A DNA stretch of 64,000 nt from Photorhabdus luminescens subsp. luminescens (lineage in GTDB: Bacteria > Pseudomonadota > Gammaproteobacteria > Enterobacterales > Enterobacteriaceae): positions 1 to 64,000 of the forward strand of contig NZ_JXSK01000004.1 of the NCBI RefSeq assembly GCF_001083805.1. The letters run 5' to 3'. The translations under genes and the position numbers were made by a program. Below are positions 22,230-55,780 of the stretch, one piece after another. Below the pieces are notes generated by a model that was not told the DNA's origin, searched no databases, and worked only from the letters and a program-made list of their open reading frames with translations. Position 1 is the first letter of the stretch. Every line of letters begins with the position of its first letter.

Positions 22230-22850
22230 ATGACTGATAAGTTAATTACAGGTGCAACTTTTTTCGATAGAAAATACTTTCTGGGTGAAGCGCACCATTA
22301 TCCAGAAAATGATATTATTATTCCATTGCCTTATGATCTTAACGATAGATTCCGCTCAGTAAGAATTGGAACATTATCAAAAGTTTATGCATGGCGTCAT
22401 CAGACCGATTGTGAACCCGGTCAACGCTATCGTGAATGGGAATATGATCATCCAGATATTGATAGAGAAATTAGAGGATTATCTAAGTTTAAAGTGGCGC
22501 CAAAAGATACCTGCCTGGTTGCATTAAGACTTATTGATGATACTTATTCAGGTATTAAATTCTCAATGTTCACGAATACACATTGCGTGGGTCCAGTTGA
22601 AACAACAACTGATGATGATTATGCGCTAGTTGGTATACTGCCATTTGAGACAGAGTTAGTCACTGCCATTGCAATAAGAAATACCAGTACTGGAGTATAT
22701 ATTAATAACGGATCATTCTATTTCTATCGTGATGCAAATGGTATTGTTACTATTGATGAGAAAGCTAACTTCCCTAAAAATCTCAGAATAGTTAATGTAG
22801 GTGGCAATCGTTTTGATATTCATATTATCAGTACCGAATTTTCTAACTAA
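22230..22850 (+). CDS. Betagamma-crystallin-like protein, paralogue 1
   Basis: 206 aa, no signal peptide. The N-terminal 50 residues carry a Greek-key-like pattern (TFFDRKYFLGEAHHYPE, then FRSVRIG) resembling the betagamma-crystallin motif, in which aromatic-x4-aromatic-x-Gly and Ser residues often bind calcium. The C-terminal half (about 95-206) is a second beta-rich domain I cannot name, with GSFYFYRDANG and PKNLRIVNVGGNRFDIHI. Start ATG after AAGGAATAGAGAAAT. About 60% identical by eye to the next gene over the first 57 residues. Function unknown. Confidence 0.72.
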   Translation: MTDKLITGATFFDRKYFLGEAHHYPENDIIIPLPYDLNDRFRSVRIGTLSKVYAWRHQTDCEPGQRYREWEYDHPDIDREIRGLSKFKVAPKDTCLVALRLIDDTYSGIKFSMFTNTHCVGPVETTTDDDYALVGILPFETELVTAIAIRNTSTGVYINNGSFYFYRDANGIVTIDEKANFPKNLRIVNVGGNRFDIHIISTEFSN

Positions 22851-23587: not shown

Positions 23588-24217
23588 ATGATAAAAGAAT
23601 TAATTACAGGCGTCACGTTTTTTGAAGAGAAAAACTATCAGGGTAAATCACATGATTACCCAGAGCTCGATAAAATTATCTCTCTCCCTTCCAACCTTAA
23701 CGATAAATTCCGTTCAGTAAAAATCGGTAAATTATCAAAAGTCCATGCGTGGCGCCATTATAACGATCCAGAAAGCAAATATTATGAATGGGTAGTCGAT
23801 AATCCAGATATCGATAGAGAAATTAGAGGGTTATCTAAATTCAGAATTATGCAGAAAGATACAAAACTGGTTGCACTAAGAGTTATCGATGATACTCATT
23901 CAGATACAAAATTCTCCATGACCGTTAAGATATTTAATGGAGAAGAACAAGAAACAATCGACGTTAACGCCACAACAGATGATAACTATATTGTCGTTAA
24001 TGAACTATTGGTACAGAAAGAGATAGTCACTTCAATTTATGTAAGAAACGTCAACACCGGAGAATATATTGGTAACGGGTCATTCTATTTTTCTTATGAT
24101 GCTATTGGCATTGCAACTATTGATGAAGGACTCAATTTCCCTAAGAACTTGAAATTGGTCCATGTAGGAAATAATCGTTTTGATTTTCACATTACCAGTA
24201 CTGATCCTATTGCTTAA
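23588..24217 (+). CDS. Betagamma-crystallin-like protein, paralogue 2
   Basis: 209 aa, same two-domain layout as paralogue 1: TFFEEKNYQGKSHDYPE and FRSVKIGKLSK in the Greek-key-like N-terminal domain, the shared core NPDIDREIRGLSKF, and a C-terminal GSFYFSYDAIG / NRFDFHI domain. An excellent ribosome site AAGGAG lies 8 bp before the ATG. The pair looks like a tandem duplication that included the downstream hairpin. No signal peptide. Confidence 0.72.
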   Translation: MIKELITGVTFFEEKNYQGKSHDYPELDKIISLPSNLNDKFRSVKIGKLSKVHAWRHYNDPESKYYEWVVDNPDIDREIRGLSKFRIMQKDTKLVALRVIDDTHSDTKFSMTVKIFNGEEQETIDVNATTDDNYIVVNELLVQKEIVTSIYVRNVNTGEYIGNGSFYFSYDAIGIATIDEGLNFPKNLKLVHVGNNRFDFHITSTDPIA

Positions 24218-46491: not shown

Positions 46492-47733
46492 ATGGATCAC
46501 TGTCATACCTCTGGATTGATCTCTTTGCAGCAGGCGTTGGAAAAACTTCTGACTCAAGTTACACCTCTGACTGATACAGAAGCCGTCAGCCTCCTGCAAA
46601 CATCAGGGCGCATCACGGCAACAAATATTATCTCTCCCATCAATGTGCCCCCTTTTGCTAACTCAGCAATGGATGGTTATGCCGTGCGCTACGCCGACTT
46701 AAATGACAATAAACCTCTGCCTCTGGCAGGAAAAGCGCTGGCAGGCACGCCTTTTCAAGGAGAATGGCCGGTTGCAACTTGTATCCGCATTATGACTGGC
46801 GCACCCATTCCCACAGATGCTGACACAGTTATTATGCAGGAATACGCAGAAATTACTGATGACGGCATCGTTTTCACTCAACCAGCCAAACAAGGTCAGA
46901 ATATCCGTCTGGCTGGCGAAGATATGACTAAAGGTGCGGTGGTACTACCGGCAGGTAACAAATTATCCACTGCTCAATTACCCCTGATTGCATCTTTAGG
47001 CATCGCCGAAGTTGAAGTGGTTCGCAAATTGAAAGTCGCTATTTTTTCGACAGGTGATGAGTTGCAAGCTATCGGTCACCCACTTAAGGAAGGGCAAATT
47101 TATGATACCAACCGTTTTGCCGTTCGACTGATGCTGGAGAAACTGGATTGCGACGTTATTGATTTAGGCGTTATTGCAGACAATCCCCAAGCTTTACGTC
47201 ATGTTTTCGCACAAGCAGATCAACAAGCTGATTTAGTCATCAGCAGTGGCGGTGTTTCTGTGGGTGAAGCAGACTACACCAAGCAGATACTGGATGAATT
47301 AGGCGAAATCTGTTTCTGGAAACTGGCAATTAAACCGGGTAAACCTTTCGCGTTTGGCAAACTAAAAAACGTCTGGTTCTGTGGTCTGCCGGGTAATCCA
47401 GTTTCAGCCGTCCTCACTTTCTATCAATTAGTTCAACCTTTAATCGCTCGCCTATCCGGTTTTACGGCATGGCAACCCCCTATGCGTATGCGCGCCAAGG
47501 TCATCACGCCATTGAAAAAGACACCGGGAAGAATGGATTTTCAACGGGGTATTGCTTCGGTGAATGAACAAGGTGAACTAGAAGTTTGTACGACGGGGCA
47601 TCAAGGCTCTCATATATTTAGTTCATTCAGTCAGGGGAACTGCTTCATTGTTCTGGAACGTGAACGTGGGCGGGTAGAAGTTGGTGAAAATGTTGAAATC
47701 GAACTGTTCAATCACTTACTGAAAAATGAATAA
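46492..47733 (+). CDS. moeA: Molybdopterin molybdenumtransferase
   Basis: 413 aa. Inserts molybdate into adenylylated molybdopterin. Conserved segments: [51 protein letters not shown], and [14 protein letters not shown]. Stop overlaps the moeB start by one base (TAATG). Confidence 0.96.
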
Positions 47734-48485
47734 TGACCATTGAACTCACAGACGCAGAAATCCTACGCTACAACCGTCAGATTGTTCTACGCGGGTTTGA
47801 TTTTGACGGTCAGGAAAAATTGAAATCTTCGATGATTCTGATAGTCGGCGCAGGTGGTTTAGGTTGCGCAGCATCCCAATATTTGACCGCAGCAGGTGTG
47901 GGAACAATAACACTACTGGATTTTGATACCGTTTCTCTCTCGAACCTACAACGGCAGATCCTGCATCGGGACGAACGTATCGGCATGGCTAAGGTGCATT
48001 CAGCCCAATTGACGCTCCGGGCAATAAATCCACATGTCACGATTAAAACCGTTGACGGATTACTGGAAGATCAGGCGCTAAATGAACTTATCAGCCAGAA
48101 TGATATTGTCTTAGATTGTACGGATAATGTGGCGATCCGCGAACAACTGAACCGCCTGTGTCTGGTAAGGAAAACGCCTCTGGTTTCCGGCGCAGCTATT
48201 CGTATGGAAGGACAACTAACGACATTTACTTATCAGCCAGATGCCCCCTGCTACCGTTGCCTGAGCAGACTGTTTGGTGAAAACCATCTAACATGTGTAG
48301 AAACGGGGGTTATGGCGCCATTGGTCGGCACCATCGGTACATTGCAAGCAATGGAAACCATCAAACTCCTTACCGGATACGGTCAAGTTAACAGCGGAAA
48401 GGTTTTACTGTTTGATGCAATGACAATGCAATTTCGTGATATTAAATTACTTAAAGATCCTAATTGCGAAGTATGCAACAGTTAA
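47733..48485 (+). CDS. moeB: Molybdopterin-synthase adenylyltransferase
   Basis: 250 aa E1-like enzyme activating MoaD. ATP motif VGAGGLGCAASQYL, then SNLQRQILH, DCTDN, and zinc Cys pairs CYRC and NCEVC at the C-terminus. Translationally coupled to moeA. Confidence 0.96.
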   Translation: MTIELTDAEILRYNRQIVLRGFDFDGQEKLKSSMILIVGAGGLGCAASQYLTAAGVGTITLLDFDTVSLSNLQRQILHRDERIGMAKVHSAQLTLRAINPHVTIKTVDGLLEDQALNELISQNDIVLDCTDNVAIREQLNRLCLVRKTPLVSGAAIRMEGQLTTFTYQPDAPCYRCLSRLFGENHLTCVETGVMAPLVGTIGTLQAMETIKLLTGYGQVNSGKVLLFDAMTMQFRDIKLLKDPNCEVCNS

Positions 48486-50149: not shown

Positions 50150-50390
50150 TGCATTCGCTCTTACATTTAGAAACAAAAGGGAAATCGGAAAAATCGATAG
50201 CGGCGTATTATGCCACAATAGTGTTAAGAGATCGCTGGAAGTTTTGGGTATTCTTTAAGCTAATGGAGATGCAATATATAGTTATATTGTAGTATGAAAC
50301 ACATAATATAGATCCTGAAAAATAAGTCCCATTCATAGTCAAACGTCCTCAAATTAATATATTGAGTAAATTTCTACTAAGCGGTAATTC

Positions 50391-51587
50391 TTATACTATT
50401 TTATAATTTCTAATAAAATAGATAGCAGAGATTAGCCCTAAACCTCCTGCACCAATAAAAGTAAATGATACGCTGAAATAATGGGCAAACCAAGAACCAA
50501 CAACTGGGCCAGTTACTAATGCTGTAAGTTGCAGGCTCCGGACACTTGAAGAAATAACTCCTAACATATCTGTTGGAGCTTCTCGTTGGAGGAGAATAGA
50601 ATATGACATTATTATACAGGAATAACAAAATCCGTTAACAAACCAAATTATGCAAAAAATCACAAGTGAAACCTTTGTGAATAGAATACTTAATATTCCT
50701 GCCGTTATTACCGTCACGCTGAAACCTACCAATCCCAGTAACATTAAAGAAACGTTACTGAAGCTACTATTTATTTTCTTATAAATGCTACCACAAAATA
50801 TTGCACCTATAGCTGTGAAACTTACAATTATGCCAAAAGCACTGGACAAAAGCCCCTTCTCTCTTAGTAAAATAGTTAATATTGAATCATATAGACCAAG
50901 GGTCAAAGAAGATATTAATACGACAGAAAAAGCAGAAAAAAACTGTTGGTTTTTCCTAATAATCTTATAAAGGAACTTAAAATCTGGCAATAAGCTACGG
51001 TTAGCATTGGGATTACTTTGCCAACCTATTACAGTTGCCAGCCTTAAACATAAAGTTGCTGACATTAACGCAAGTATTGCTGTGAAATAGAAACCATTTT
51101 GCGACGAATCAATAATAGCCAATGATGAACCAATAAGTGGAGAAATTATCTTGGTGCATTGATCAACAATAGTGGTTAAAGCAGTAGTATGCACAATTTG
51201 CTCATCACTGAGAATTTTTCTAATTATAATTTGCTCAGATGGAATCATTCCTAAATTACTTATACCCTTAAGAAAAACTGCAAGTAAAAAAACATCAGGG
51301 TTAGTAGCAGTAGCGAGAATCAAAGATGTAATAAACCGGAAAAAAGAACTTAATAGCAAAATTAATGCCGGAGAATTTCTATCAGCTAGCTGACCTATTA
51401 AAGGACCAAGTAATAGGCCAGGGAAACCATATAAAGCTGCTGCTAAACCTAGATCACGGACAGATAAGTTAAACGAAAAACTCAAAACAGTAAAAATAAG
51501 AATAAAATCAACCCATGTAGCAACTGAGTTAAAGAAGCGCGAAGTGAAAAATGGTGGATACCCCCTAACTCTAAATAAATTCAACAT
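50391..51587 (-). CDS. MFS transporter of the peptide/carbamoyltransferase cluster
   Basis: 398 aa with about 12 hydrophobic segments, related to the multidrug/macrolide-efflux type MFS proteins (LGLAAALYGFPGLLLGPLIGQLADRNSP carries the loop 2-3 motif GxLADRxS). Last gene of the minus-strand cluster, 17 bp after the carbamoyltransferase stop. AT-rich like the rest of the cluster and unlike the flanking ybiT. Probable exporter or self-protection pump for the cluster's product; this is inferred from position. Confidence 0.85.
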   Translation of the reverse strand: MLNLFRVRGYPPFFTSRFFNSVATWVDFILIFTVLSFSFNLSVRDLGLAAALYGFPGLLLGPLIGQLADRNSPALILLLSSFFRFITSLILATATNPDVFLLAVFLKGISNLGMIPSEQIIIRKILSDEQIVHTTALTTIVDQCTKIISPLIGSSLAIIDSSQNGFYFTAILALMSATLCLRLATVIGWQSNPNANRSLLPDFKFLYKIIRKNQQFFSAFSVVLISSLTLGLYDSILTILLREKGLLSSAFGIIVSFTAIGAIFCGSIYKKINSSFSNVSLMLLGLVGFSVTVITAGILSILFTKVSLVIFCIIWFVNGFCYSCIIMSYSILLQREAPTDMLGVISSSVRSLQLTALVTGPVVGSWFAHYFSVSFTFIGAGGLGLISAIYFIRNYKIV

Positions 51588-51604
51588 TCAATATATCCCT
51601 TTAT

Positions 51605-53158
51605 TTACTTTTTCATATAAAAACGATCATTTACCACAAAGCCATCAAGATCATTCTCTTTAGCATATTTGTAAACATCACTCGTTCTATTAATAAAACC
51701 TGTCCCATTAAAGTTTAATGAAGTATTACATAAAACACCGTAGCCTGACACCTCTTTGAAAGAGGATAATAGTTCATGTATATCCTTATTTTGTAATTTA
51801 TTAACAGTTTGAGGTCTAGATGAACCATCTACGTGCGTTATAGCTTGTAATCTTCCATCTAGAACCATTGAAAAGAAAAGCATATAAGGACTGGGTTTAT
51901 TTAGATTAAAGTATAATTTAAAATCTTCTTCCAGACATATAGGCGCTATAGGCCTAAATGATTCACGTTTCTTAATTAAATTAAGCCGTTTAAGCGTTTC
52001 TTTTAAAAATGGAGCAGCAAGAATAGAGCGATTACCCAATGCCCTAGGACCTATTTCTGCTTTACCTTTAGCCCAAGCAATTATTTTACCTTCAAAAAGA
52101 CGACATGCCACTTCATTAAAATTCAGCTTCCTGATAATGAAACCATCTACTCCATCTAAATCATCAATAAATTCTTGACCACTATATACATCCCAATGAA
52201 TTTTCGCAATTTTAGTAAAGTGGTATTGAGCATCAATTGCAGTTCCGATTGCTGAGCCCACGTCGTTAGTACACGGAGGCACAAACACATCGCTAAAAAT
52301 TCCACAATTCAACCACTTACTATTCCAGTCACAGTTTAAACCACAACCTCCACTTATCAAAAGTGGAATATGTTCTCTTACAAAGGGTTTTATGGAGTTA
52401 TAGAAAAACTCAAAAATTTTATCAGAAAAATGACCAGCAAATTGTTTAAAAGCTACACTTTCAACGCCAACATTATAGTATGGAGAGTTTTTAAAGTTAT
52501 CTTTATAAAGGCTATCTATAGCTGATTCTGGTTTAAGTAATTCATCAATGAGAATTTCATCTTCAATACTTTTTATATTACGATCACTGTAGGCAGCTAA
52601 AGCCATCATTTTTCCTGCATCTCCTAACCTAATTTTCCCTTTAGCAAAGTTGAACTTTGGATCAGCAAGTCCATACGCAAAAGCATAACGGATTCCAGGA
52701 TCTAGAAGCACATTAGCAAGCTTTGTTATTATAATATCCTTATCTATATAATAAAATGAACCGATATGGCCTTCCCATAAAAGAGCGTAACAAGGCTGCC
52801 CCTGCTGAAATGGAGACATTCCATAGGCTCCAAGTAAATGAGATCTTTCATGTGAGGAAGTGAAATAATACAAATCAGTACCCAAGAAGCTTATTATATT
52901 GGGTTTTGGATATTCTAAACCTAAGTATCCAGCACCAATATTACGACCACGTGGGTCTACTCCAACGGACCACCCACTTAGAGCTATAACATCAGGCTTT
53001 TCATTGATACAGGATAATGTTTCAATAAAAAGCTCGGCTGTAACAGGAGAATATCTAAGCCCTGAATCTTTCTCTGCCTCATAAGAGAATGCAAGTGTAC
53101 TATCTTTCAGATACGAGATATGACCATCATGACCAGGTTTGAACGATATAATCTTCAT
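51605..53158 (-). CDS. NodU/TobZ-type O-carbamoyltransferase
   Basis: 517 aa. N-terminal Kae1-like domain: KPGHDGHISY, metal-site HERSHLLGAYGMSPF, GGCGLNCDWNSKW, and PPCTNDVGSAIGTA. C-terminal YrdC-like carbamoyl-AMP domain: EIGPRALGNRSILA, RESFRPIAP, HVDGSSRPQTV, and NTSLNFNGTGFI. All main family motifs are present, so it should be active; it is somewhat shorter than the family's common 550-600 aa. Such enzymes transfer carbamoyl from carbamoyl phosphate to a hydroxyl (or amine) of an antibiotic or Nod factor. Its start overlaps the upstream dehydrogenase stop by 4 bp (ATGA), showing translational coupling. Confidence 0.9.
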   Translation of the reverse strand: MKIISFKPGHDGHISYLKDSTLAFSYEAEKDSGLRYSPVTAELFIETLSCINEKPDVIALSGWSVGVDPRGRNIGAGYLGLEYPKPNIISFLGTDLYYFTSSHERSHLLGAYGMSPFQQGQPCYALLWEGHIGSFYYIDKDIIITKLANVLLDPGIRYAFAYGLADPKFNFAKGKIRLGDAGKMMALAAYSDRNIKSIEDEILIDELLKPESAIDSLYKDNFKNSPYYNVGVESVAFKQFAGHFSDKIFEFFYNSIKPFVREHIPLLISGGCGLNCDWNSKWLNCGIFSDVFVPPCTNDVGSAIGTAIDAQYHFTKIAKIHWDVYSGQEFIDDLDGVDGFIIRKLNFNEVACRLFEGKIIAWAKGKAEIGPRALGNRSILAAPFLKETLKRLNLIKKRESFRPIAPICLEEDFKLYFNLNKPSPYMLFFSMVLDGRLQAITHVDGSSRPQTVNKLQNKDIHELLSSFKEVSGYGVLCNTSLNFNGTGFINRTSDVYKYAKENDLDGFVVNDRFYMKK

Positions 53159-54249
53159 GATTGAGCCCCCTTATTTATAGTCTTTCTCTTCGCTGTTTCT
53201 ATAAGATTCAATGCGAAAGGAGATCCTGAACTGGGGCCTGCACCTAAAAAGAATAATACTGATTCTTCAATTTCATCTATCTTCAATAACTTATTTATTT
53301 CACGATCCAAGAAATATCCTGTCGGCCATGATCCTAACTGCATCCCTGTTGTAACAAGCTGGAAAGTCTGTGTGAGGCAACCTATATCTAATAAAGCAAC
53401 TCTATATGCCCTAGAATGAGGATATTTCCACCACATCTTACTAAAACGTGATGTTACAAATACACCAAAGGCGAGGTCCTTGGCAAACATCTGTGCACAA
53501 AGTAAACCACCAAGTTTTTCTCCATTTATATCTTCAGTTACCAATGTAAGCTCATGAGTATGAGAACGATAGTGATAAACACCCGGTAATAACCCGTCTA
53601 CATTTAAAGCAACCAAGTAAGCTTCACTTGCTTGAAGAGAACCGCCAGAAGGAGATGTTCGACAGTAACCTACCGGCAGTAGACCTGCGTTTTCCATATC
53701 CTGTCTTTTTGATCCATGAATTGCTCCAAATGTCCAATATAAGGTATTAGAAACTTCAATAAGTGAAACCTTTTCTTCTTTAAACTCTCTACTAGTTTTA
53801 CGGTTCAGCAAGGCATCAGCCAAAGTAATTTTAGTTAAAAAATCCTTACTTGCTTGCGGTAAAGGCGTTACCTCGCCATCTCGTTTATATTCCATTTCAG
53901 GAATGTTTTTTACTATTGATGAACAATAGTCTATATAGCCTTCATAGCTATCATCTTTAGAAAGATCCATGCCGTCTTCTAATACAATTTGTGTTCCTAT
54001 GTGGAATATCTGAGATAAACAATCCCATCCCCACTTTTTAAAGTCTCTATCATCACTACTAAGGATTCCACTTTCATGTATTTCTTGATCTATCTCTGAA
54101 TCTGTTAGTTGTTCACCATTAACAATTTCTTTTATTCTTTTTATATGTTTTTCATCTATCTCATATTGAATATGTCTACGGTAATCCCAAAGAATCGTTT
54201 TTCCTTCAATAAAGCGTATGAAAAATAAAGGATCATGTTTGTTATTCAT
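53155..54249 (-). CDS. SagB-type nitroreductase/dehydrogenase
   Basis: 364 aa. An N-terminal region of about 150 residues precedes a flavin nitroreductase domain: RKTSREFKEEKVSLIEVSN, SPSGGSLQASEAYLVALNVDGLLPGVYHY, and the late GMQLGSWPTGYFLD / FFLGAGPSSG. The order and motifs fit SagB-family FMN dehydrogenases, best known as azoline oxidases in RiPP pathways. The start at 54249 (MNNKHDPLFF) follows GAGGATAAT; the longer frame to 54297 lacks a ribosome site. No YcaO cyclodehydratase or E1-like partner is nearby, so azole formation cannot be assumed. 88 bp downstream of the peptide gene. Confidence 0.85.
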   Translation of the reverse strand: MNNKHDPLFFIRFIEGKTILWDYRRHIQYEIDEKHIKRIKEIVNGEQLTDSEIDQEIHESGILSSDDRDFKKWGWDCLSQIFHIGTQIVLEDGMDLSKDDSYEGYIDYCSSIVKNIPEMEYKRDGEVTPLPQASKDFLTKITLADALLNRKTSREFKEEKVSLIEVSNTLYWTFGAIHGSKRQDMENAGLLPVGYCRTSPSGGSLQASEAYLVALNVDGLLPGVYHYRSHTHELTLVTEDINGEKLGGLLCAQMFAKDLAFGVFVTSRFSKMWWKYPHSRAYRVALLDIGCLTQTFQLVTTGMQLGSWPTGYFLDREINKLLKIDEIEESVLFFLGAGPSSGSPFALNLIETAKRKTINKGAQS

Positions 54250-54337
54250 ATTATCCTCTTCAAATAAATGGGCAATTAGAATTTGATAATTGCCCATTAT
54301 ATTAATATAAATTAAATATTTTCAGTCCTGACGTATA

Positions 54338-54418
54338 TTAATCAGCTTTTCCTACAGTTAGGATATATGCGTCATTTGACTGATAAGATAAAGTTGGTTC
54401 AATAGCGATTTTCTTCAT
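54338..54418 (-). CDS. 26-aa peptide, candidate precursor or scaffold of the cluster
   Basis: Previously overlooked short frame: begins MKKIAIEPTLSYQ, contains SNDAYIL, and ends VGKAD-stop. The ribosome site AGGAG, 8 bp before the ATG, is among the best in the window. It has two Tyr, three Ser/Thr-rich positions and no Cys. It lies directly upstream of the SagB-type gene with no terminator between, so it should be co-transcribed. Ser/Thr/Tyr hydroxyls or the Lys could accept a carbamoyl group. Alternatives: a regulatory leader peptide (but no run of one codon type and no attenuator hairpin), or a small toxin. Confidence 0.7.
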   Translation of the reverse strand: MKKIAIEPTLSYQSNDAYILTVGKAD

Positions 54419-54485
54419 TGCTAGTTTCTCCTGATTTTAGGATAAGACTAATTATTAAAGAATAAGCATTAATTGGTACAAACTA

Positions 54486-54701: not shown

Positions 54702-55086
54702 ACACCCGGTGTATTACATCTCCACTCACATTCCTTGAGAAAGAGCTCAAAATATTCCTTTAATATGGCATTAGATCTACGCATATGATGTTTGGCCTAG
54801 TTCCAAAAATTTTCTATCCCATTGATATGGTTTTGACGATTTTTAGCATCTACAAACTCCATATTATAGTTGTTTTCCTCTGAAATAGCTTTCGTCTATC
54901 TTGACCTTCAAACATAGAATTTTCATCGATATAATCAGCACTAAGGACTATTAGGCGATGAAAATAGTAAGCAAAAGTCGTCTTGTTGACACCAATTAAC
55001 TCTGCCACAGTGCGAACTGTAGCCCCCGCCGCAAAGAGCTCCTGAAAACGTTTTTGCTTGTATTGGCTAATCCGACTTTTTCTCAT
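54702..55086 (-). pseudogene. IS1595-family (IS1016-like) transposase remnant
   Basis: The N-terminal part is open from 55086: MRKSRISQYKQKRFQELFAAG and VNKTTFAYYFHRLIVL, typical of the IS1016 group. The DDE core is missing or scrambled. The C-terminal part reappears at 54702-54850: QNHINGIENFWN, then TAG (54797-54799), then AKHHMRRSNAILKEYFELFLKECEWR in sequence. It is therefore an internally deleted, non-functional insertion sequence at the upstream edge of the peptide cluster. Confidence 0.82.
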
Positions 55087-55270
55087 TTAGATGTCCTAGA
55101 TTAAATGACTTATCTAGGACAACCCCTTTAATTACATAAAAATAGTTAAAAATATCATTATAGAAAATTAACTTTAATATACTTCTCAATAAATTAAAAA
55201 ATCCATAAAAAATATTTCAAATCACTCATTAACTGATTTAATAGAAACTCCCCTTTCTCTTCATTTATTC

Positions 55271-55780
55271 CTATTCAATTAACTTCTTAAAAAAAACCAC
55301 CCTTTCTGTCTCAACAAACCCAAGAGACAAATGAAGAGCCAGTGATTCTTCATTATTTATATCAGCATCTGATGCCATTTCAGTACATCCATGATCCTTA
55401 GCCCAATTTTTAATATGCGCTATAAGTCGGGTTGCTAAACCCTTTCTTCTGAATTCCGGGGAAATATAGATCCCTTCAAGGTAAGCTACCGGAGAGGAAT
55501 TGCACCCATTGACATATTCAAAACGCAATGAAGCTTCTGCAAAACCGCAAAAATCACCTAAATCCGATTGGATCATAAAAGCAATCTGGTTATCAGAATG
55601 CAAAATCGAGGTCATTTCTTCGCAGTGCTCTTCTTTTGATGCCGTGGGCCATAATGAACTCCGCAAATACAACCATTCATCAAAATTATGGCTGTTATTC
55701 ACGACAATTTGATAGAGATTATTTTCCAACTGAATATACGATGCTTGCTGATATTGATTATCCATTTTTGACTCAGACAT
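55271..55780 (-). CDS. GNAT acetyltransferase, aminoglycoside 6'-N-acetyltransferase-like
   Basis: 169 aa. Beyond a generic GNAT fold (ISPEFRRKGLATRLIAHIKNW as the acetyl-CoA loop), it has features of AAC(6')-I enzymes: SSLWP, CGFAEASLRFEYVNGC, SSPVAYLEGIYISPEFRR, CTEMASDADINNEES, and LGFVETERVVFFKK at the C-terminus. It may acetylate an aminoglycoside or a similar amine. The N-terminal 25 residues before VVNNSHNFDEW are extra relative to those enzymes; the start could be the second Met (55765). Confidence 0.82.
   Translation of the reverse strand: MSESKMDNQYQQASYIQLENNLYQIVVNNSHNFDEWLYLRSSLWPTASKEEHCEEMTSILHSDNQIAFMIQSDLGDFCGFAEASLRFEYVNGCNSSPVAYLEGIYISPEFRRKGLATRLIAHIKNWAKDHGCTEMASDADINNEESLALHLSLGFVETERVVFFKKLIE

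Follow-up and report, generated by a model that had tools for sequence, protein, structure and literature searches.

What does a bacterial operon make when it places a SagB-type flavoenzyme, a carbamoyltransferase (CT) and an exporter behind an open reading frame (ORF) of only 26 codons? SagB enzymes are genome-mining markers of ribosomally synthesized and post-translationally modified peptides (RiPPs), mostly azole peptides. In the branch described here, which also occurs in Burkholderiaceae and Yersinia, the neighbours are tiny precursors, and an enzyme that would form azolines was not seen in the operon. The operon lies in a stretch of 64,000 nucleotides from Photorhabdus luminescens subsp. 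luminescens (contig NZ_JXSK01000004.1, positions 1 to 64,000), hereafter the window, where the 26-codon gene, a SagB-like gene, a CT gene and a major facilitator superfamily (MFS) gene adjoin on the minus strand (Table 1). A preliminary sequence-only reading had described four genes on one strand with a 4-bp overlap and a 17-bp gap, and the sequence and family profiles bear this out: the SagB and CT frames share positions 53155-53158, and positions 51588-51604 separate CT from MFS. We consider it probable that the locus belongs to an undescribed family of RiPP operons that lack YcaO and use SagB as core enzyme, and that its peptide is modified and then exported. This reading, already raised as a RiPP-like pathway from sequence alone, is well supported because the peptide has a conserved leader and a conserved core, SagB bears a predicted domain resembling a RiPP recognition element (RRE), and the core motif changes with the tailoring enzyme.

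To follow the short peptide across genomes, we used 94 loci drawn from four sets, some places being counted in two sets. An ORF with the leader pattern M-K-x-[I/V]-x-[L/I]-E was found at most 340 bp upstream of the SagB relative, on its strand, in 90 of the 94 loci; L023, which escaped the pattern scan because its SagB is cut short, had its peptide read separately and brings the count to 91. The control, a somewhat longer stretch on the opposite strand, gave such an ORF in 10/94. No leader-type ORF was found in L015 and L017, two alphaproteobacterial loci that were also searched separately, or in L094, where SagB is broken. The earlier reading had credited the frame with a good ribosome site and had proposed looking for clusters in which it is missing or unconserved; an AGGAG indeed precedes it in the window, and those three loci are the only ones of the 94 without such a frame. 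Among 55 distinct peptides, position 4 is Ile (44) or Val (11), position 6 is Leu, Ile or Met in 53, and position 7 is Glu (52) or Gln (3). In 22 QSNDAY sequences, the proportions of synonymous (pS) and nonsynonymous (pN) differences averaged 0.92 and 0.23 over codons 1-7 (pN/pS 0.25, synonymous change near saturation) and were 0.74 and 0.58 in the drifting tail (pN/pS 0.78); because QSNDAY and several leader positions were fixed in the pattern used to select these sequences, the core pN of 0.000 is a consequence of the selection, which also helps the leader value. Over codons 1-18 of six enteric sequences, pS was 0.53 and pN 0.05. A chance ORF is ruled out by the excess over the control and by a leader held despite near-saturated synonymous change; judged by this conservation, the small frame is real and occurs far beyond chance.

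The locus has two marks of a RiPP system, namely a dedicated precursor gene beside a modifying enzyme, with the peptide as the presumed substrate, and a conserved leader that is separate from the core. Conservation of the C-terminal half, suggested as a check by the sequence-only reading, was found for its middle (codons 13-18, QSNDAY) and not for the tail. The remaining two of the 24 loci with this class of core carry LSNDAY and LSNNAY, and the DNA pattern for the core occurs a single time in the window's own genome. Precursors in SagB-associated loci measure 20-58 residues, and two of them (L003 and L075/L145) contain the leader-core unit twice, fused in one frame.

Wider regions of related loci revealed that the gene slot between SagB and MFS is exchangeable. 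The core classes are SN[DN]AY, AN[LWFM] (for example KIANLAFLVAPK in Pseudomonas and KMANWTQIGAP in Burkholderiaceae), HHAMLG, LAAFSLIGMP and odd endosymbiont cores. Out of 63 tabulated loci, 58 had a precursor and 3.5 kb or more of downstream sequence; L008 and L162 (contig short downstream), L015 and L017 (no precursor) and L173 (insertion-broken SagB, no precursor found) were dropped. With CT and AurF scored by tblastn, broken copies counted, and with class motifs defined after the peptides had been seen, the SN[DN]AY core occurred with a CT in 24/24 loci, the AN[LWFM] core with an AurF-like di-iron oxygenase in 24/25, and the other cores with neither (9/9). The odd AN locus, L143, has an apparent AurF stump by eye. 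The MFS type tracked the core as well (W type in 24/24 SN loci; P type in 24/25 AN loci and 8/9 others). The AurF assignment came from PF11583 matches of two proteins (4e-18 and 3.6e-21) and from the PDB relatives 3chh and 5hyg. Clusters with AurF in the slot, from Pseudomonas and Burkholderiaceae, are L135, L136, L139-L142, L144, L151-L161, L163-L166, L171 and L172; the ANWTQ clusters L141, L142 and L144 have in common one further gene after MFS, which in L141 encodes an acetyltransferase. In L169 and L170 an extra gene of about 600 aa, with tetratricopeptide-like and methyltransferase-like stretches by eye, lies between SagB and CT.

The third-slot states follow the SagB tree, so the independent events behind these counts are few. 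In a tree of 48 intact SagB proteins, which left out ten loci with broken or short SagB frames, all 20 CT loci fell inside one starred clade of 21. The 21st member, L146, is an endosymbiont locus from which CT and the SN[DN]AY core have both disappeared; it sits in a starred set of seven, and its nearest fork has a support of 80/47. Loci with AurF and loci free of a third enzyme make up the other clade, and four changes on the tree explain the three states. Independent-pairs tests gave three pairs (two concordant, one without difference) and two pairs (both concordant), which is not significant, the events being too few.

The enzyme assignments were made from profiles and structure comparisons. 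The SagB protein scored above the cut-off of the SagB family model TIGR03605 (E 3.4e-35; 121.1 bits, cut-off 78.4). By E-value its best NCBIfam model is TIGR04511 (SagB_rel_DH_2, 'putative peptide maturation dehydrogenase'; 1.2e-39), yet its 136.5 bits lie below that model's cut-off of 240. Its closest solved whole-length fold is ThcOx, and Lys275-Tyr276, invariant among 45 SagB relatives, lines up with the ThcOx KY pair, whose role is known from azoline dehydrogenases. The protein is predicted from models to have a ThcOx-like flavin mononucleotide (FMN) domain with this pair and an RRE-like fold at residues 7-65, the latter from a modest structural match with which other small folds are also compatible. 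ThcOx itself carries clamp domains (PMC5108345). The true SagB start is almost surely the ATG at 54249, as judged from the sequence, because the longer 380-aa frame from 54297 begins within the stem-loop (54298-54267) and because the best-matched relatives have 363-365 aa.

The CT contains PF16861 (3.9e-53) and PF02543 (6.3e-21), both above cut-off; with 235 bits it does not reach the cut-off of 1000 of the NodU equivalog NF041651. Its nearest solved relatives are NovN, GdmN and TobZ, and 111 columns are invariant across 19 CT relatives, including the H103-x3-H107 pair and N298-D299, which we take from the TobZ work to be metal ligands. The MFS gene matched PF07690 (2.4e-31), with its best NCBIfam model, TIGR00900, below cut-off. 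Relatives of the CT seem, from sequence searches, much more widespread than those of SagB (3,788 of 8,000 scored candidates reach 1e-60, compared with 181 SagB relatives at 1e-3), and the CT was probably recruited. Five of 25 plasmid CT matches were viewed; glycosyltransferase and capsule, sugar or mobile genes lie beside CT there, and SagB is not listed within 5 kb of these five CT genes, whose gene tables are incomplete and where precursors were not looked for. The plasmid relatives L175-L179 and the one CT relative in the phage collection (MT837218, an unannotated record) lie outside any listed SagB context.

Taken as a RiPP operon, the locus suggests the following course. The predicted RRE domain of SagB would bind the 26-residue peptide by its leader (K-I-x-I-E), and the flavoenzyme part of SagB may then desaturate the core. 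A C-alpha/C-beta or comparable two-electron oxidation is suggested by AlbA and other oxidases of the nitroreductase fold. AlbAB, the cyclodipeptide oxidase, is a filament that acts on free cyclodipeptides, with no known leader or RRE. Next, the CT would carbamoylate the SNDAY core, perhaps by O-carbamoylation at Ser14. A housekeeping protease, as no protease gene lies within the operon, might then trim the peptide before its presumed export by the MFS protein.

The sequence-only reading had named Ser, Thr, Tyr or Lys as the residue acted upon. Lys is unlikely, and its carbamoylation as in StdF was ruled out, since the core is Lys-free and so is the part behind it in 9 of the 23 distinct SN-class peptides. 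Ser14 is our best guess for the carbamate, on sequence grounds, because the residue before Asn is Ser in every CT locus and Ala in every AurF locus. It is possible, though less likely, that the peptide is instead carbamoylated at Tyr18 or, as in crocagin, at the N-terminus exposed when the leader is removed. Crocagin offers a precedent for the latter, and Tyr18 is also present in every CT locus; against both stand the exchange of Ser for Ala in the AurF loci, where the Tyr place is merely variable, and the chemistry of the nearest solved relatives, TobZ, GdmN and NovN, which carbamoylate hydroxyls.

We regard it as improbable that the short ORF encodes a regulatory leader peptide (an attenuator or arrest peptide) acting via a stem-loop, with the enzymes working on a small molecule. 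Such a role would fit the order of short ORF, hairpin and enzyme genes: across the 58 loci the 70 nt behind the precursor had a mean folding z-score of -3.14 (49/58 below -2), while the control 70 nt upstream gave -0.30 (5/58). The hairpins vary in sequence and hardly in position (median start 9 nt past the stop, median 12 pairs). Five or more T within 8 nt behind the stem were found in only 4/58 hairpins (the tail of the window's own hairpin was cut off in the stretch taken by the script and has four T by eye), no antiterminator was seen, and the hairpin was retained in 55/58 loci when folded together with the ORF, so that a classical attenuator is ruled out. The terminator scan does not list the window's stem-loop. 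A regulatory role also sits poorly with the fused double precursors, with the predicted RRE-like domain on SagB and with an amino-acid sequence that is held while its codons are not. The stem-loop is likely a processing or stability element that would yield more precursor than enzyme from one transcript.

Very little speaks for a linear azole peptide made with a YcaO encoded at another site of the genome. In its favour are the known action of SagB as an azoline dehydrogenase, the Ser14 of every CT core and the one YcaO match in the genome. This match is a single 590-aa frame on another contig (C10), which we take to be of the housekeeping E. coli type. A Pfam scan of the four genes found neither YcaO, the mark of a linear azole cluster, nor an E1-like partner (related loci were not profile-searched for YcaO), which agrees with the earlier reading as far as the operon is concerned; a moeB-like E1-type gene, recognized by eye, lies at 47733-48485 on the opposite strand beside a moeA-like gene. 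The SagB-precursor pair moreover occurs with cores free of Cys, Ser and Thr, such as KIANLAFLVAPKAR in L154. Azole RiPP systems (streptolysin S, microcin B17, cyanobactins; SagB/McbC/ThcOx) have a SagB-family FMN enzyme like the window's and differ from it in that the window's operon, with its CT in third place and without YcaO or E1-like genes, has a 26-aa precursor lacking Cys, as the sequence-only reading had said.

Equally slight are the prospects of a pearlin-like scaffold, whose added residues would be tailored by SagB and CT and released as a small product: the very small precursor and the exporter's weak profile matches to small-molecule exporters such as EntS would suit it, but the C-terminus, the site of extension in such scaffolds, is unconserved, which weakens the scaffold option of the earlier reading, the conserved part is an internal core, and the Pfam scan of the four-gene operon found no LanB-like peptide-aminoacyl-tRNA ligase gene.

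The operon can also be set beside systems from the literature. We found no paper on SagB with a NodU-type CT or AurF as a precursor-guided set (few subscription journals were covered), as the earlier reading had supposed for this gene set, and searching by core strings was fruitless. Two RiPP pathways with carbamoyltransferases were found, crocagin (PMC10070186) and std (PMC13174530), and the latter preprint names crocagin as the only earlier well-characterised case. Crocagin (CgnA-I, L) resembles the window in its very short core and its carbamoyltransferase CgnI, and differs in CgnB/CgnC/CgnE and 2-oxoglutarate chemistry, with no SagB in the accessible part of that article (PMC10070186); Pfam gave no CgnB, CgnC or CgnE in the four-gene operon, no Cgn profile having been run. 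The std cluster (StdA-I) of Streptomyces thermodiastaticus shares a short conserved motif, a NodU-like carbamoyltransferase domain and an MFS gene, and differs in its YcaO-TfuA and MNIO chemistry and in a CT that is fused to a peptidase and acts on Lys, a residue the window's core does not have; SagB is not mentioned in the accessible text (PMC13174530). In a 2025 RRE survey, fusions of RREs with carbamoyltransferases (PF02543) are mentioned without detail, and PF00881 (SagB) serves as a marker of RiPPs (PMC12710340). Elsewhere, SagB-like nitroreductases stand beside ATP-grasp genes in a graspetide survey (PMC8939145), SagB is tied to oxazole formation in Nocardia siderophores (PMC7413640), and a Synechococcus survey pairs SagB with YcaO and reports SagB-type dehydrogenases and aspartate/ornithine carbamoyltransferases, a different family, near prochlorosin genes (PMC10783134).

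More tentatively, and with somewhat less than even confidence, we propose that these SagB flavoenzymes define a separate RiPP class, in which they act alone, guided by the leader, as peptide desaturases for which no azoline is required, with precursors of the lengths given above and a swappable third slot (CT where the core is SN[DN]AY, an AurF-type di-iron oxygenase where it is AN[LWFM], or no enzyme). On this view the window would give a didehydro-hexapeptide with an O-carbamoyl group, and the AurF branch, frequent in the Pseudomonas loci that were read, might yield the first N-oxygenated Asn peptides. Should the peptides prove to be substrates, a RiPP family of wide occurrence has been overlooked, perhaps since its precursors are too short for gene finders, and the natural swap of CT and AurF-like enzymes with matching cores offers a ready system for the coevolution of tailoring enzyme and core.

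Table 1. Coordinates of the operon and its elements in the window.
Feature	Position	Strand	Basis or remark
26-aa precursor peptide gene, MKKIAIEPTLSYQSNDAYILTVGKAD	54338..54418	-	ATG 54418, TAA ending 54338; leader-type ORF ahead of SagB in 91/94 loci
Ribosome site AGGAG	54428..54432	-	sequence
Leader segment M1-E7 (MKKIAIE)	54398..54418	-	55 distinct peptides compared
Core QSNDAY, codons 13-18	54365..54382	-	SN[DN]AY in 24/24 CT clusters
Stem-loop between precursor and SagB gene	54267..54298	-	sequence and folding
SagB-type FMN dehydrogenase with N-terminal RRE-like domain (predicted), 364 aa	53155..54249	-	profile and structure comparisons
RRE-like domain, SagB residues 7-65	54055..54231	-	predicted
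Lys275-Tyr276 of SagB	53422..53427	-	no variation in 45 relatives; matches KY of ThcOx in the alignment
NodU/TobZ-family carbamoyltransferase, 517 aa	51605..53158	-	Pfam and solved relatives
MFS exporter (predicted), 398 aa	50391..51587	-	PF07690
Inserted segment	50311..55262	.	ends set by comparison with sister locus L184 (84 nt between the two flanks)

A scan of one genome per species gave 23 SagB-relative loci. At the E-values applied to the sampled genomes, SagB relatives were found in 23/398 genomes of a Cupriavidus-centred family sample and in 4/399 of the corresponding order sample (the centre itself and three weaker matches). In Pseudomonas, 89 of 298 sampled genomes had one, at 92 places, and the precursor was present in all 49 distinct places viewed (30 loci and 28 wider regions, overlapping). 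Yersinia gave 5/25 genomes, three of them in pieces, the window's order 8/394 (six weak), its genus 1/12 (the window's own locus only) and its class 57/369, mostly far weaker matches. In the Yersinia loci L011, L012 and L013 the SagB frame is broken (in L011 and L012 that of CT too) and the precursor ORF is intact; the broken copies are cluster decay in part of the genus. A plasmid-borne system was ruled out, with one distant SagB match among plasmids, as was a defence system, the PADLOC library scan giving zero matches.

Within the window, a segment of about 4.95 kb that includes the operon is, on comparison of flanking sequences, an insertion, because the ABC-F and acetyltransferase flanks lie close together in several sister genomes. 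The ABC-F gene reaches 50220-50310 in the window, and the acetyltransferase stretch starts there at 55255-55263; in four of eleven sister loci (L181, L182, L184 and L188), 84-455 nt separate this gene from 540-636 nt of that stretch. L187 and L186 have shorter acetyltransferase pieces behind ABC-F, at distances of 68 and 206 nt respectively, L183 retains 104 nt of the sequence adjacent to that stretch, and the other four have no acetyltransferase stretch beside the ABC-F gene. The acetyltransferase gene itself (55271-55780, minus strand) scored above cut-off for the AAC(6') group E (180 vs 140 bits); as a native flank in several sister genomes, it was ruled out as a cluster member. At the upstream edge of the insert (54720-55110, minus strand) lie apparent insertion-sequence remains, recognized by eye, with a 78-aa ORF of helix-turn-helix look that has no NCBIfam match. 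Farther off, two similar tandem proteins of 206 and 209 aa (22230-22850 and 23588-24217, plus strand) share the motif LITG[AV]TFF near their start.

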